Assembly (NCBI GenBank): GCA_022799355.1 | Contig: JAAWOG010000026.1 | Span: 1-44,496, forward strand | Length of the DNA: 44,496 nt | DNA from: Lachnospiraceae bacterium | Lineage (GTDB): Bacteria; Bacillota; Clostridia; Lachnospirales; Lachnospiraceae | Direction of reading: 5' to 3' | In this document: piece after piece, positions 6,609 to 24,319 of the stretch | Position numbering within the stretch: position 1 is the first letter of the stretch | Layout: each line of letters starts with the position of its first letter | The notes under the pieces: model-generated | Databases searched by the model: none | Told to the model about the DNA's origin: nothing | Seen by the model: the letters and a program-made list of their open reading frames with translations, nothing else | Position numbers and translations under genes: made by a program

Positions 6609-7199
6609 TCAGGCACCGGCTTCACCCCTGAACACGATCCCGCCCGTCTCTTCCTCCATATGCTCCACGACAGCCAGAGATTCCAGCCTGACTCCCCTCG
6701 CACGCAGTGCATCTCCTCCCGCCTGAAAGCCTTTCTCGATCACAATGCCCGCCCCGGCCAGTTCGGCGCCGGATGCTTCCACCAGTTCGATGAGTCCCTC
6801 AAGGGCTTTTCCGTTCGCCAGAAAATCATCGATCAGCAGCACTTTATCCCCCTTACCCAGAAATTCCTTCGCGACGATAATGTCATAGACTTTTCCGTGC
6901 GTATAAGATTGTACCTGTGTCGTGTAGACATCTCCCGCGATATTTTTGGTCTGCGTCTTTTTGGCAAATACCACCGGCACATGAAAACTCCGGGCAGCAA
7001 TGCAGGCAATACCGATGCCGGATGCCTCTATTGTCAGAATCTTATTGACCTCCACATCCGCAAAACGCCTCTTAAATTCCCTGCCGATCTCCTCGAACAG
7101 TTCAATATCCATCTGGTGATTTAAAAAAGCATCCACCTTTAATACATTGCCCGCCTTAACTTTTCCGTCTTTTCGTATTCTTTCCTTTAAAAGTTCCAT
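6609..7199 (-). CDS. xpt: Xanthine phosphoribosyltransferase
   Basis: Makes XMP from xanthine and PRPP in purine salvage. The PRPP-binding motif [20 protein letters not shown] lies near residue 125, and the N-terminus [20 protein letters not shown] plus [15 protein letters not shown] are typical of Xpt. The length of 196 residues matches the family. GGGAGAG lies just upstream of the start. The usual guanine riboswitch of Firmicute xpt genes was looked for in the upstream 180 bp and not seen; a weak promoter-like GTGACA, 18 bases, TAAACT lies on the minus strand near 7320-7350. Confidence 0.94.
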
Positions 7200-7379
7200 A
7201 AGTTTTCTCTCCCGTATCGCAGCGGTTCTGCCTCCTTTGCTGCTCTATGTTTCTTATGTATTCCATACAGCATCTGCTTTTTATGCCGTTTTCCCCTGCT
7301 CTGTGCTGGTTCTATGCATAGTTTAGCATGGAAAGACACAATTTGTCACCATATACATGAAAAAAATGCCAAAATACGG

Positions 7380-12464: not shown

Positions 12465-13853
12465 TTAAAAAGTAAACTTATCGGCAAAGTAAGCATCCAG
12501 TTCGTCAATGGCAACACGCTCCTGCTCCATGGAATCCCTGAAGCGCACCGTCACCCTGCCGTCCGTCTCGGAATCAAAGTCGTAGGTCACGCAGAACGGC
12601 GTACCGATCTCATCCTGCCTGCGGTATCTCTTACCGATATTGCCTCTGTCGTCAAACTCACAGTTATATTTTTTGCTCAGCGCCGCATAAATCTTTTCCG
12701 CACCCTCATTTAATTTTTTGGACAGCGGCAGCACCCCGATCTTAACGGGCGCAAGTGCCGGATGGAACCGCAGAACGGTCCTCATATCGCCGCCTTCCAG
12801 CTCTTCCTCATCGTAAGCCGCACACAGGAACGCCAGCACCACACGGTCCGCGCCAAGGGAAGGTTCAATTACATAGGGCACATACTTCTCCCCCTTGCTG
12901 TCATCAAAATAACTCATATCCTCGCCGGACACTTCCTGATGTCTGGTCAGGTCATAGTCTGTCCTGTCCGCGATACCCCACAACTCTCCCCAGCCGAAGG
13001 GGAATAAAAACTCGATATCCGTGGTGCCCTTGGAATAGAAACAAAGTTCTTCCTGCGCATGGTCTCTCAGCCTCATCTCGTCTTCTTTCATGCCGAGAGA
13101 TAAGAGCCAGTCTCTGCAGAAGCCTCTCCAATACCGGAACCACTCCATATCCGTCCCCGGCTCACAGAAAAACTCCAGTTCCATCTGCTCAAACTCTCTG
13201 GTACGGAAGGTAAAGTTCCCGGGTGTGATCTCATTTCGGAAAGATTTACCGATCTGCCCGATACCAAACGGCAGTTTCTTCCGGGAAGTTCTCTGTACGT
13301 TTTTAAAATTTACAAAAATACCCTGGGCTGTCTCCGGTCTTAAATACACCGTATTTCTCGCATCTTCGGTCACGCCCTGGAATGTCTTGAACATCAGATT
13401 AAACTGACGGATATCCGTAAAATTATGCTTGCCGCAGGTAGGACAGGGCACGTTGTGCTCCTCGATAAAATTCTTCATCTCCTCCTGGGAATAGGCGTCG
13501 ATGGGCCTGCCCAGATCGATGTGATTCTCCTGCGCATAGTCCTCAATGATCTTATCCGCGCGGAACCGCTCCTTACATTCCTTACAATCCATCAGCGGAT
13601 CGGAAAAACCGCCCAGATGGCCGGAAGCCACCCATGTCTGGGGATTCATTAAAATGGCGCAGTCCACACCCACATTGTAGGGATTCTCCGTGATAAATTT
13701 CTGCCACCATGCCTTCTTTACATTATTTTTCAGTTCCACACCCAGATTGCCGTAGTCCCATGTGTTGGCAAGCCCGCCGTATATCTCGGAACCGGGATAC
13801 ACAAATCCCCTTGCCTTCGCCAGCGCTACGATCTTCTCCATTGTTTTTTCCAT
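12465..13853 (-). CDS. glyS: Glycyl-tRNA synthetase (single-chain, alpha2 type)
   Basis: 462 residues from [17 protein letters not shown]; the start at 13853 follows AAGGAGAGAATT. Charges tRNA-Gly. Class II features seen are [20 protein letters not shown], motif 2 [20 protein letters not shown] and motif 3 with [18 protein letters not shown]; the C-terminal anticodon-binding domain starts near [15 protein letters not shown] zinc-type Cys set ([19 protein letters not shown]) is present. It is the eukaryote-like homodimeric form used by many Firmicutes instead of GlyQ/GlyS. Two long hairpin modules occupy its 5' region (13880-14077). Confidence 0.97.
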
Positions 13854-13879
13854 AATTCTCTCCTTTTTATTCCAGTTCC

Positions 13880-13969
13880 GTATCCATCCTACCATTACAC
13901 CGGTTATCTAAGACAATTTCCTACTGCTTCGCATCAGAAAATTGTCTTGTGCAATGTCCGGATGGATAC
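13880..13969. repeat. Intergenic hairpin module 2 (glyS upstream)
   Basis: Outer arms GTATCCATCC (13880-13889) and GGATGGATAC (13960-13969) enclose a second perfect stem, AAGACAATTT (13910-13919) with AAATTGTCTT (13939-13948). It is flanked by TTCCAGTTCC on the left and TGTTTTCC on the right, the linker shared with modules 13990-14077, 22857-22950, 22963-23050 and 24247-24302. Confidence 0.8.
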
Positions 13970-13989
13970 TGTTTTCCTGTTCCAGTTCC

Positions 13990-14077
13990 GTAAGCGCCCT
14001 TCCAGTACCGATTTCCGCAGAGATATTTCCAGACGCACAGCGTCTGTAAATCCTCTGGGTACTGTACGCGCGCTTAC
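13990..14077. repeat. Intergenic hairpin module 1 (glyS upstream)
   Basis: Outer arms GTAAGCGC (13990-13997) and GCGCTTAC (14070-14077). Inside are nested CAGTACC/GGTACTG, AGAGATATTT paired imperfectly with AAATCCTCT, and CAGACG/CGTCTG around a 5-base loop, so nearly the whole 88 bp folds as one rod. It is followed by TGTTTTCCAGTTCCG, the shared linker. Confidence 0.8.
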
Positions 14078-14112
14078 TGTTTTCCAGTTCCGTATCACCA
14101 GTATTTTTTTAT

Positions 14113-21931: not shown

Positions 21932-22834
21932 TCATCCTTCGTCCTCACGATAGCCGAAATTTTTCAGCAGGATATCGCTGTCCCGCCAGTCCTTCTTCAC
22001 TTTCACCCAGAGCTGCAGATTCACTTTGCAATCCAGCATCTTTTCAATATCCACCCGGGCAGAGGCACCGATCTTTTTCAGCATGCTCCCCTGCCTGCCG
22101 ATAATAATCCCCTTGTGGGAATCCTTCTCACAGATAATCGTCGCCTCGATATCGCAGATTTTTCTGCGGTATTTCATACTCTCTATCGTCACCGCGATAC
22201 CATGGGGGATTTCCTCCTCCAAAAGGCGCAGTCCCTTTTCCCGGATCAGTTCCGCCACGATCTGGCGCTCCGGCTGGTCCGTCACGGTATCCTCATCATA
22301 AAAAGGCTCCCCGTAGGGCAGGTATTTATAAATCGTCTGCAGAAGATCCTCCGTATTCTCCGCTTTCAGGGCGGAAACCGGCACGATCTCCGCCCCCTCA
22401 AGTTCTTTATGATAGGCATCGATGACAGCAAGCAGTTCTTCCTTTTTTACCGTATCGATCTTATTGATCACAATAATAACAGGCGTATTTACTTTCTTAA
22501 GCTGCCCGATAATATGCTGTTCCCCCGCCCCGATAAACGTGGCAGGCTCCACCAGCCAGAGCACCACATCCACATCCTTCAACGTGCGCTCCGCCGCCGA
22601 TACCATATAATCGCCCAGCCGGTTCTTTGCCTTATGGATGCCCGGCGTATCCAGAAATACGATCTGCCCCCTCTCATCGGTGTAGACCGTCTGAATCCGG
22701 TTTCTCGTGGTCTGCGGCTTCTTTGAAGTGATAGCGATCTTCATGCCGATCAATGTATTCATTAAAGTGGATTTCCCCACATTGGGCCTGCCGATCAGGG
22801 CGGCAAAGCCTGATTTGTTATTTGCTGCTGTCAT
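21932..22834 (-). CDS. era: GTPase Era
   Basis: 300 residues. Era binds the 3' end of 16S rRNA and assists 30S maturation. G1 GRPNVGKSTLMN, G3 FLDTPGIHKAKN and G4 VINKIDTVKKEE are all present, and the C-terminal KH domain contains DSHKGIIIGRQGSMLKKIG. Length and domain order are normal. It lies downstream of two hairpin modules (22857-23050) and its ribosome binding site is AGAGGA. Confidence 0.97.
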   Translation of the reverse strand: MTAANNKSGFAALIGRPNVGKSTLMNTLIGMKIAITSKKPQTTRNRIQTVYTDERGQIVFLDTPGIHKAKNRLGDYMVSAAERTLKDVDVVLWLVEPATFIGAGEQHIIGQLKKVNTPVIIVINKIDTVKKEELLAVIDAYHKELEGAEIVPVSALKAENTEDLLQTIYKYLPYGEPFYDEDTVTDQPERQIVAELIREKGLRLLEEEIPHGIAVTIESMKYRRKICDIEATIICEKDSHKGIIIGRQGSMLKKIGASARVDIEKMLDCKVNLQLWVKVKKDWRDSDILLKNFGYREDEG

Positions 22835-22856
22835 AATTTTCCTCTATTCCGGTTCC

Positions 22857-22950
22857 GCATTCGTCTACGAGATGCATATAAGGGGGGAGTAAATATGAAC
22901 CTGATAATACACAGCTTCATATTTCTCCCATGCATCTCTTCGACTTCTGC
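22857..22950. repeat. Intergenic hairpin module A
   Basis: On the minus strand: GCA-GAA-GTC-GAA, stem GAGATGCAT, inner stem AAATATGAA/TTCATATTT, ATGCATCTC, then GTA-GAC-GAA-TGC. GCA/TGC and GTC/GAC pair around symmetrical 3x3 loops. Linker AGTTCC/TGTTTT on both sides. Confidence 0.85.
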
Positions 22951-22962
22951 TGTTTTAGTTCC

Positions 22963-23050
22963 GCATCCGTCTACGCAGTACACCTTCAGAGGACTAAATC
23001 CCAGCCGCTTCGCGTCTGCCATTTGTCCTGTGCGCTGCTTCGACTTCTGC
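22963..23050. repeat. Intergenic hairpin module B
   Basis: Same flanks as module A (GCA-GAA-GTC-GAA ... GTA-GAC-GGA-TGC on the minus strand) but different central pairing: GCAG/CTGC, then AGGACAAAT paired imperfectly with ATTTAGTCCT. It lies between the DUF4349 gene and module A, with a 12-bp linker. Confidence 0.85.
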
Positions 23051-23067
23051 TGTTTTTGGTTCCTCTC

Positions 23068-24201
23068 TTATTTTTCCGGCATATTCTTCGGCAGTTTCTC
23101 AGCCTCCTGCGGCAGTTTGCCGGACAGTGGGTTCTCTCCCTGATTATCCTTCGGCATGTTTTCCTGCGTTTCAGCCGTATCTGCCGATATCTGCTGCCTT
23201 TTCAGACGCCTTTTTTCCTTTTTCTTCTTCTCGCGCTTTACTAACGCAAAGAGGATCAGCAATACGACCGCAATCACCACAAGCCATGCCAGAATATAGG
23301 GAATATAGATCACAATGCTGATAAAAAGATTCTCGATATCCATTCCCAGTCCATACAGATTTTTTGAAAATCCGTTCTTTATCCGCCCCCAGGTGGTGGG
23401 CTCCTCAGGCGGCGTCAGCCTCTCTACTTCCTGAACATGCAGGTACACCGTACTGTAATTGATCTTATTGTCGTATGTACGGAGCTGGGATTCCATGCTC
23501 TCAAGCTCATATCTGACATCCGCCAGCTTATCCTCTATGGCGATCAGATCCTCCACCGTCTCCGCCATATCCATCAACTCAAGAAGCCTATCCTGCTCCG
23601 TCAAAAGCGCTTTTTTACGGCTCTCGAGATCCACATAGGCAAGAGTTACATCCTCCACACTGGTGGATTTACTCGTGATATTGCTGTTTTCCTCCATCAT
23701 TGTAAGAAAACTCCCCAGCTTATCCGCCGGAACCCGCACCGTCAGGGAAGCATTTCTGTTTTCAATCCTGTTTCCGTAATAATCACTTTTCCCGTTCCAC
23801 TGTTCGCTGCTTTCAATGTAGCCGCCCATTCCTGCGATCTGCTTTTCCAGATTTCCCATCAGCTCATCAAAGTATTCCGTTTCCGCCGACAGGTACATTG
23901 TCGTAATCAGCTTCCGGTCCGCCCGGGGATCTTCACTCACCTCCGGTGCCTTCGCTTCCGCTCCCTCAGCCTCATAATCCGTCTCTTCTGCTACGGCCTC
24001 TTCCGCCGGCGCCTCTTCCGCCTTATAACCGCTTTCTCCGTAGCCCGTATCATAAAGATATTCCTCCTGGTTAACCGTAGGCGCCGCTGCTATCGCCGAT
24101 GTATCCGCTGCTCCCCCGCTCATCACCGCGCTGCCGCAGCCCGAGAGCAAAAATGCTGCCCCCGCCGCCAAAAGTAATGCATGTAAACGCTTCTTTCCCA
24201 T
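23068..24201 (-). CDS. DUF4349 lipoprotein
   Basis: 377 residues from MGKKRLHALLLAAGAAFLLS; the start at 24201 has AGGAGG six bases upstream. Signal peptide with lipobox LSGC, an acidic Ala/Glu-rich linker, then the DUF4349 domain (RKLITTMYLSAETEYFDELM to VYLHVQEVERL) with a central coiled coil around LESRKKALLTEQDRLLELMD. A C-terminal membrane segment (IVIYIPYILAWLVVIAVVLL) and a strongly basic cytoplasmic tail follow. It is thus anchored at both ends, suggesting an envelope-associated or scaffolding role (inference). It is flanked on both sides by hairpin modules of one family (A/B and C). Confidence 0.85.
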   Translation of the reverse strand: MGKKRLHALLLAAGAAFLLSGCGSAVMSGGAADTSAIAAAPTVNQEEYLYDTGYGESGYKAEEAPAEEAVAEETDYEAEGAEAKAPEVSEDPRADRKLITTMYLSAETEYFDELMGNLEKQIAGMGGYIESSEQWNGKSDYYGNRIENRNASLTVRVPADKLGSFLTMMEENSNITSKSTSVEDVTLAYVDLESRKKALLTEQDRLLELMDMAETVEDLIAIEDKLADVRYELESMESQLRTYDNKINYSTVYLHVQEVERLTPPEEPTTWGRIKNGFSKNLYGLGMDIENLFISIVIYIPYILAWLVVIAVVLLILFALVKREKKKKEKRRLKRQQISADTAETQENMPKDNQGENPLSGKLPQEAEKLPKNMPEK

Positions 24202-24246
24202 AACGATCCTCCTATTCCAGTCCCGCAGATGTCTGATTCCAGTTCC

Positions 24247-24302
24247 GCATCCGTCTACGAGATGCATCTAAAGGGGTAACCATGCATCTCTTCGACTTCT
24301 GC
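24247..24302. repeat. Intergenic hairpin module C
   Basis: Shortest member: GCA-GAA-GTC-GAA, GAGATGCAT, 14-base loop, ATGCATCTC, GTA-GAC-GGA-TGC (minus strand), followed by GGAACTGGAAT. It lies between the M16C peptidase stop and the DUF4349 start. Confidence 0.88.
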
Positions 24303-24319
24303 TGATTCCGGTGCCGTAC

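Follow-up and report, generated by a model that had tools for sequence, protein, structure and literature searches.

A covarying hairpin repeat fixed at ribosome-binding sites in some Lachnospiraceae

A family of structured repeats of approximately 100 nt was found in a Lachnospiraceae bacterium, in which most arrays run directly into the Shine–Dalgarno (SD) sequence of the gene behind them and the fold is kept by compensatory change. The family came to light through three hairpin modules, A, B and C, noticed around one gene by a sequence-only reading of a 44,496-nt stretch of DNA (the window, that is, the whole stretch analysed). This observation was confirmed as real and proved to be larger than first reported: about forty genes of the same genome, several of them housekeeping genes, carry one common motif at the ribosome-binding site, often with full units, and the family is not in Rfam. 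It unites in one element what is normally found apart, the interspersed tandem repeat on the one hand and the covarying RNA with a fixed place at the ribosome-binding site on the other. We consider it very probable that the family is a selected RNA of mRNA leaders, co-transcribed with the gene behind it and thus presumably present in the mRNA.

Units of the window and anatomy of the repeat

On the minus strand, the order of features is the M16C peptidase gene (27253-24320), module C, the DUF4349 gene, modules B and A, an era-like gene and then a recO-like gene. The three modules share CAGCAGAAGTCGAAG...CGTAGACGRATGCGGAA on this strand and fold as originally described (−44.5, −32.9 and −22.9 kcal/mol for A, B and C, respectively). 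Covariance model R2 detected five copies in the window, two of them before glyS. The features are as follows.

12465..13853, minus strand: glyS, glycine–tRNA ligase (NCBIfam NF003211, E 8e-84; the match covers the first 200 aa, and its 282 bits lie below the whole-protein cut-off of 312)
13860..13865, minus strand: AAGGAG, SD of glyS (start codon 13851-13853)
13869..13975, minus strand: glyS-proximal unit, outer stem GUAUCCAUCC/GGAUGGAUAC (R2, 96 bits, E 2e-25)
13979..14083, minus strand: second unit of the glyS array (R2, 89.9 bits, E 1e-23)
21932..22834, minus strand: gene behind units B and A, era-like GTPase with KH domain (Pfam MMR_HSR1 and KH_2; presumably era, a name taken from this domain pair)
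22840..22845, minus strand: AGAGGA, SD-like sequence of the era-like gene, adjoining unit A
22846..22956 (as module 22853-22957), minus strand: unit A, long-core sub-type (R2, 66.4 bits, E 8e-17); its 3′ end, GCGGAACCGGAAT, abuts the SD of the era-like gene
22957..23056 (as module 22953-23057), minus strand: unit B, main sub-type, in tandem with unit A and behind the DUF4349 stop codon (R2, 69.6 bits, E 9e-18)
23068..24201, minus strand: DUF4349 gene, behind unit C (Pfam PF14257, E 8e-66)
24208..24213, minus strand: AGGAGG, SD of the DUF4349 gene
24214..24235, minus strand: remnant unit CAGACATCTGCGGGACTGGAAT between unit C and the SD (by eye)
24236..24308 (as module 24243-24309), minus strand: unit C, shorter core (R2, 43.9 bits, E 3e-10)

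The single orientation of the copies was borne out, while the bracketing of the DUF4349 gene turned out to be incidental, as unit C belongs to the SD of that gene, units B and A to that of the era-like gene, and another pair of units to glyS. In the window, the units follow a stop codon and precede an SD, and thus resemble parts of mRNA leaders; stand-alone small RNAs, for which a check had been proposed, found no support. An intrinsic terminator was rejected, as none of the five window units carries a terminator-like site.

Each unit starts with CAG and comprises an outer stem of ~9 bp, a short asymmetric loop, a second stem of ~8 bp, an inner helix, a 3′ bulge and the closing CGG-AACTGGAAT, with ~33 pairs in all. 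The outer stem is locus-specific and free in sequence, while conserved letters are found at the base (CAGCA/TGCGGAACT) and in the inner hairpin (AUUU/AAAU), after which the unit closes with AACUGGAAU. Two A·G mismatch positions were recognized by eye in the inner helix, and the core occurs in two sub-types, of which module B represents the main one and module A the other, marked by AAATTTGAA...TTCAAATTT. From an alignment of 92 units, RNAalifold recovered 13 pairs, all in the two outer stems, and the inner helix rests on a 38-unit test in which the structure was hand-drawn from single sequences. Units are bounded by the motif TGCGGAACYRRAA (R hereafter), and a typical array reads, by eye, (5′-truncated partial)-R-unit-R-(unit-R)-SD-start; the arrays examined are head-to-tail. 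The glyS-proximal unit folds at −44.8 kcal/mol (z −7.45) and leaves the SD and the AUG unpaired in the minimum free energy structure; its R reads TACGG because the second outer-stem pair is U-A instead of C-G. A coding repeat was ruled out, since the units, about 98–109 nt long by eye, keep no frame, and for a conserved pseudoknot pairing the 3′ bulge with the SD, judged by eye, the bulge seemed too variable. Short copies that keep a closed stem numbered 21, overlaps included, when at least five closing pairs were required.

The symmetrical 3 × 3 purine loops, which had been put forward as a hallmark of the fold, are no feature of the family and were rejected as its key element: the outer stem is a continuous helix in most copies, with positions 4–6 Watson–Crick in 111, 102 and 95 of 155 raw extracted units, some of which are nested or spurious extractions. 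The GAA/GGA loop is a private sequence of the locus of modules A–C. Likewise, the exact 13-mer GCAGAAGTCGAAG occurs at only three places in the 3.79-Mb assembly, namely A–C, and at none in eight other genomes of the genus; therefore these letters are local, while the architecture is not.

Some variant arrangements were also seen. A second repeat type associated with R, TAGACCGAGCTGAAAGCGAGGGATACGAACAAAAAGCGAAGCGTTTGTGAGTTGGGATC, forms three tandem copies, each followed by R (L127:1357-1630; own-genome contig 32, about 6930-7210), is also present at L028, L087 and L222, and resembles sequence adjoining R in G002, in G004 and in a named MAG. At L139:2180-2280, the upstream frame seems by eye to enter the first unit, which lacks a left R, and the element may there supply the last codons and the stop of the upstream gene.

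Copy number and placement at ribosome-binding sites

R was found at 83 places in the own genome (G000, the 3.79-Mb assembly) versus one match of the reversed control, and at 24, 73, 1, 46, 102, 1, 22 and 63 places in the eight other genomes of the genus (G001 to G008, in this order; controls 0 or 1). The shorter GCGGAACYRRAA occurs at 106 places in the own genome (control 7), 100 of which underlie the own-genome set, which is therefore incomplete. At E ≤ 0.001, R2 gave 52 matches in the own-genome loci, including one duplicate and some partial copies (51 distinct matches). Outside the genus, counts of the looser TGCGGAACYDRAA in ten genomes gave the following hits and control hits: G021 72 and 1, G288 32 and 1, G279 25 and 1, G181 8 and 2, G023 8 and 2, G378 5 and 2, G253 3 and 0, G107 2 and 1, G032 1 and 0, and G230 1 and 3.

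Model R1, built from modules A–C and run on relatives as the sequence-only reading had proposed, recovered further tandem and dispersed copies in the own genome and in relatives. At E ≤ 1 it matched 48 of 397 genomes, and the best E of 43 of these was above 0.003, so that they are probably mostly chance. R2 at E ≤ 0.001 matched at least 10 of the 397 sampled family genomes, own included (at least 9 of 334 genera), and class-wide at least one of 391 genomes, the own genome alone. These figures are lower bounds because only 9–10 candidates per genome were scored; the own genome gave 9–10 matches in these scans versus 52 in the dedicated listing, and absence and copy number carry little weight there. 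Scanning one genome per species for the motif plus TAGGAG yielded at least 116 stretches. Among the 80 matches listed, the sources were Lachnospiraceae, Acetatifactor, Lachnoclostridium, [Clostridium] symbiosum, Clostridia or unnamed bacteria, and one MAG labelled Oscillospiraceae. Seven viral contigs (L292-L298) with the R-to-CAGCA junction were also seen, representing either prophage flanks or element-carrying phages. Several own-genome contigs (12, 30, 47, 48, 62, 90 and 115) end in or near units, within the first few hundred bases; therefore assemblies may be interrupted at the repeat, and the copy numbers given here may be too low.

Placement was evaluated on the own-genome loci only (63 loci, 297 kb, some overlapping), and the loci of the TAGGAG-seeded scan were excluded because the seed itself included this SD-like sequence. 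Of 86 R motifs, 34 run into a unit, 42 are followed on the same strand by an SD and a start codon within 60 nt, 6 fall within ORFs and lack such a start, and 4 are placed otherwise. Counted for the array-terminal motifs, an SD with a start follows in 42 of 52 cases within 60 nt and in 30 within 20 nt, as against 1 of 52 in the opposite direction (0 within 20 nt). As the SD pattern is loose, 6000 random positions in the same loci were used as a control, and only 16.3% and 4.8% of them had an SD and start within 60 and 20 nt, respectively. About three of the 42 (L109, L120 and L149) resemble fortuitous matches within coding regions, and the ten terminal motifs without SD and start also include some chance matches in genes. 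In a mixed set of 129 units from own-genome and scan loci, for which an SD and start were a prerequisite for inclusion, the distance from the end of R to the start codon had a median of 14 nt (5–95% range 11–19 nt). In the same set, the SD stretch was 64% unpaired versus 58% when the upstream unit was shuffled once, and more open in 91 of 129 units. A switch acting by SD sequestration is thus unsupported, the SD being mostly open in the predicted fold.

The link to the DUF4349 gene is no feature of the family, since diverse genes follow the units (glyS, dnaG, secD, guaB and gatB). When ten proteins behind units were scanned as 200-residue pieces, with scores mostly under the whole-protein cut-offs, nine obtained a name: glyS, dnaG, secD, gatB, plsY, guaB, purine nucleoside phosphorylase, a pgk-like protein (phosphoglycerate kinase, best model bifunctional pgk/tpi) and a clpX-like protein. 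The tenth, without a match at E 1e-10, we take to be infB-like. No shared pathway is evident among the nine.

These results bear on the possibility that the unit is a specific regulatory RNA whose inner tip binds a global RNA-binding protein or a ligand and switches the translation of many genes. The conserved base and inner helix with a sequence-free outer stem between them, as well as the occurrence of several tandem copies, would suit such an RNA. The predicted fold, however, leaves the SD unsequestered, the named genes have no pathway in common and two core sub-types with different inner sequences coexist, hence we regard this explanation as improbable.

Compensatory change, strand asymmetry and turnover

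The claim that an RNA fold is kept by compensatory change was borne out by covariation in 38 units and by comparisons of same-gene sites. In the 38 units, both partners had changed in 27 of 33 pairs, and 87.4% of the cells were paired, a figure that the hand-drawn structure favours. The covariation score was 0.491 versus 0.074–0.144 when the partners were slid by 1–3 columns, and none of 500 shuffles scored as high. In 92 units, six of the nine outer-stem pairs were represented by all four Watson–Crick types. In fourteen comparisons of same-gene sites, 325 pairs were unchanged, 71 were compensated and 16 showed a single standard change, while 39 had lost pairing in one of the two units and 5 lacked it in both. 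These comparisons were picked by us where two full units were pairable and are not independent (four concern the DUF4349 site); the alignment was fitted to the model, and the orthology of the sites is presumed, paralogy being possible. The two comparisons between G001 and G007 contained no compensated pair. The explanation by exact duplicates, which would have spoken against a selected fold, was ruled out, as stems, cores and lengths vary with compensation, and chance was ruled out by the motif control counts, the covariation and the placement control.

The unit sets used here were derived stepwise. The 155 raw units were reduced to 147 by dropping nested starts and those without the core signature, then to 108 by clustering at 85%, and to 92 by requiring 5 of 10 outer Watson–Crick pairs and an energy below −24; these two requirements bias the gene-strand energy and the paired percentage towards our reading.

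Mismatch types were compared to decide between RNA and DNA. At outer-stem positions 4–10, G-T and A-C mismatches occurred on the gene strand in a ratio of 39:9 (129 of 147 filtered units, binomial p 1.5e-5), and of 19:5 in the non-redundant set (93 of 108 units, binomial p 0.007); this preference for G-U over A-C therefore indicates RNA. For the 13 consensus pairs, the G-U to A-C ratio was 63:17, falling to 27:15 (p 0.09) without one pair that is often G-U; one pair is most commonly G-U (18 of 38 units). Moreover, in 87 of 92 units the fold of the gene strand is more stable than that of the complementary strand, by a mean of −6.9 kcal/mol versus −3.1 for dinucleotide shuffles. Since 77.9% of the 1380 shuffles also favoured the gene strand, only part of this asymmetry is due to structure and part to base composition. 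Considering these results, selection on the mRNA strand is favoured, by a good rather than overwhelming margin.

If the complementarity were instead a property of DNA, namely a palindrome maintained through correction by template switching or through an enzyme of single-strand DNA (REP/RAYT-like or attC-like), the short-core copies with closed stems could be read as palindrome deletions of replication, which they resemble, and the R-unit-R layout could have arisen by recombination at R. Against this stand the G-U over A-C asymmetry of one strand, the pair whose commonest state is G-U, the fixed orientation to genes and the lack of a Y1 transposase match in the own genome, which together make it a very remote alternative.

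Close relatives differ in the number of units, and the differences are of entire units with R at their borders. At the DUF4349 site, G001 carries a solo R while G007 has R-unit-R in otherwise near-identical flanks (98% and 95%); two units are present in G002 and G008, one in G005, and unit C plus the remnant in the own genome, and no motif was seen at this site in G003 and G006. In G004 (L020), a different sequence of ~80–90 nt ending in GAATAGGAGG occupies the site. At another site, G001 has a mini-hairpin and a full unit and G007 two mini-hairpins. Some sites thus bear only the short motif or a mini-hairpin, and therefore the full fold is dispensable there. By our own count, with coding sites set aside by eye, 9 of the 16 non-coding G001 sites are also present in the own genome (DUF4349, guaB, galM-like, clpX-like, infB-like, pgk and three others; the grouping of shared sites mixes own-genome and scan loci and requires an SD and start). 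The sharing of sites together with differing unit numbers therefore indicates that many sites are old and kept, while the number of units is fluid.

A selfish, MITE-like mobile repeat inserting just upstream of SDs, with a fold kept for mobility and incidental effects on the host, would be compatible with the high copy number, the patchy occurrence across genera, the tandem arrays with R as direct-repeat borders and 5′-truncated first copies (by eye), and the unit present or absent between G001 and G007 at the DUF4349 site. As for the hallmarks of such elements, the outer stem is an inverted repeat, the direct repeats at the flanks consist of R, which is part of the element itself, and no virgin empty site was resolved. 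Nevertheless, the orientation towards the gene behind (42 of 52 versus 1 of 52 the other way), the compensatory change at old shared sites, the persistence of 9 of 16 sites between species whose DUF4349 proteins are 66% identical, and the failure of a search covering the Y1 transposase family to recognize an autonomous partner speak against this explanation, which we judge fairly unlikely.

A possible leader role and comparison with known systems

What a leader RNA of this kind would do can be proposed as follows. The units would be co-transcribed within the mRNA of the gene behind, where the hairpin would act as a barrier to 5′-to-3′ decay and as a standby structure beside an SD and start codon that are largely open; the following cistron may thereby become a separately stable, well-translated segment. 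The conserved inner tip would be bound by a putative factor, as its conservation suggests. In Firmicutes, RNase J degrades mRNA as a 5′-to-3′ exonuclease and 5′ hairpins stabilize, and therefore a 5′ barrier with standby function is the simplest role. The conserved inner letters, however, exceed what a plain barrier needs, and the patchy distribution (at least 10 of 397 family genomes) and the turnover of units, which also suit a selfish element, count against the working explanation, as do the sites lacking a full fold and the ten terminal motifs lacking an SD and start. The stabilizer or standby role is proposed tentatively, as possible rather than probable, while the leader RNA and this role jointly serve as our working explanation, held with slightly better than even confidence. 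The readings weighed here are not mutually exclusive, and our confidences in them need not add up to unity.

The hairpins could also be processing sites for RNase III or another enzyme, which would cleave polycistronic mRNA in the intergenic regions in the way put forward for NEMIS. The long, near-perfect helices found between co-oriented genes would be appropriate substrates, but units also lie directly behind promoter-like sequence (by eye, for example, at L327/L342 and L104) and conserved inner letters are not known to be required for RNase III cleavage, hence such a function appears quite improbable. The farthest-reaching version of the leader reading is a genome-wide leader-RNA system of some Lachnospiraceae, in which dozens of unrelated genes have, at their SDs, 1–4 tandem copies of one module whose conserved tip is read by one putative factor, and the number of units serves as an evolvable expression dial spreading by SD-directed copying; in this full form it is doubtful. 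If the family is functional, it would constitute a global post-transcriptional layer in little-studied bacteria, and if selfish, a repeat with the SD region as its target and a single orientation there. Whichever reading holds, the differences in unit number between close relatives make it directly testable.

In agreement with the earlier statement that no named family with such features was known, Rfam 15 gave no match at the gathering threshold in the window and in 13 loci, and in six more loci at E ≤ 0.5 it matched RNase P alone, away from the units of L057. Among the matches listed by searches of open-access literature, none named this family, which may be described elsewhere. Riboswitches typically serve single pathways, whereas nine of the ten proteins examined were named and are diverse; as for an expression platform, the window units have no terminator-like site and the SD is mostly open in the predicted fold.

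MIRU, the mycobacterial interspersed repetitive units, are tandem, lie inside operons, are oriented with the genes and contain small ORFs, whereas the present unit lengths of about 98–109 nt keep no frame. ERIC and NEMIS are, to our knowledge, not fixed at SDs; the sequence comparison with them was made via Rfam. As far as the parts of the sources consulted describe them, ERIC and NEMIS/Correia are repeats of about 107–168 bp with RNA hairpins, with an orientation-dependent effect on mRNA stability in the case of ERIC and RNase III processing proposed for NEMIS (PMC2229807; PMC2759123).

In the consulted part of another source, REP/RAYT elements are high-copy hairpin repeats, in which G-T pairing was taken as a hint of RNA function, with stems of 5–13 bp, a GTAG or CGTC tag and mostly head-head dimers (PMC3733652). 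The present units, in contrast to REP as depicted there, run from CAG to CGG with ~33 pairs, form head-to-tail arrays and do not carry the GTAG/CGTC tag (PMC3733652). Affiliation to REP/RAYT was rejected since the own genome has no Y1 transposase match; this transposase had no match in G000 and G001 and is present in six of nine genus genomes, including G006, which has one R only.

The BOX, RUP and SPRITE repeats of Streptococcus pneumoniae are, in the sections consulted, over-represented between convergent genes and judged parasitic, and BOX contains boxB modules in variable numbers (PMC3049150). Unlike the repeats portrayed in those sections, the present arrays are directed towards the SD of the following gene and their stems covary (PMC3049150). 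An excess between convergent genes, judged here by the strand of the start codon that follows, is not indicated, since an SD and start on the same strand follow 42 of 52 terminal motifs, and on the other strand 1 of 52. Beggiatoaceae carry TAACTGA direct repeats of 7 nt upstream of start codons (PMC4679880), while a covarying hairpin of ~100 nt, a feature of the present family, is unmentioned in the portion of that article consulted. As far as these accounts go, the present element is thus distinguished from BOX-type, ERIC/NEMIS and TAACTGA repeats by being a structured interspersed repeat fixed at ribosome-binding sites, a combination seen in none of them.
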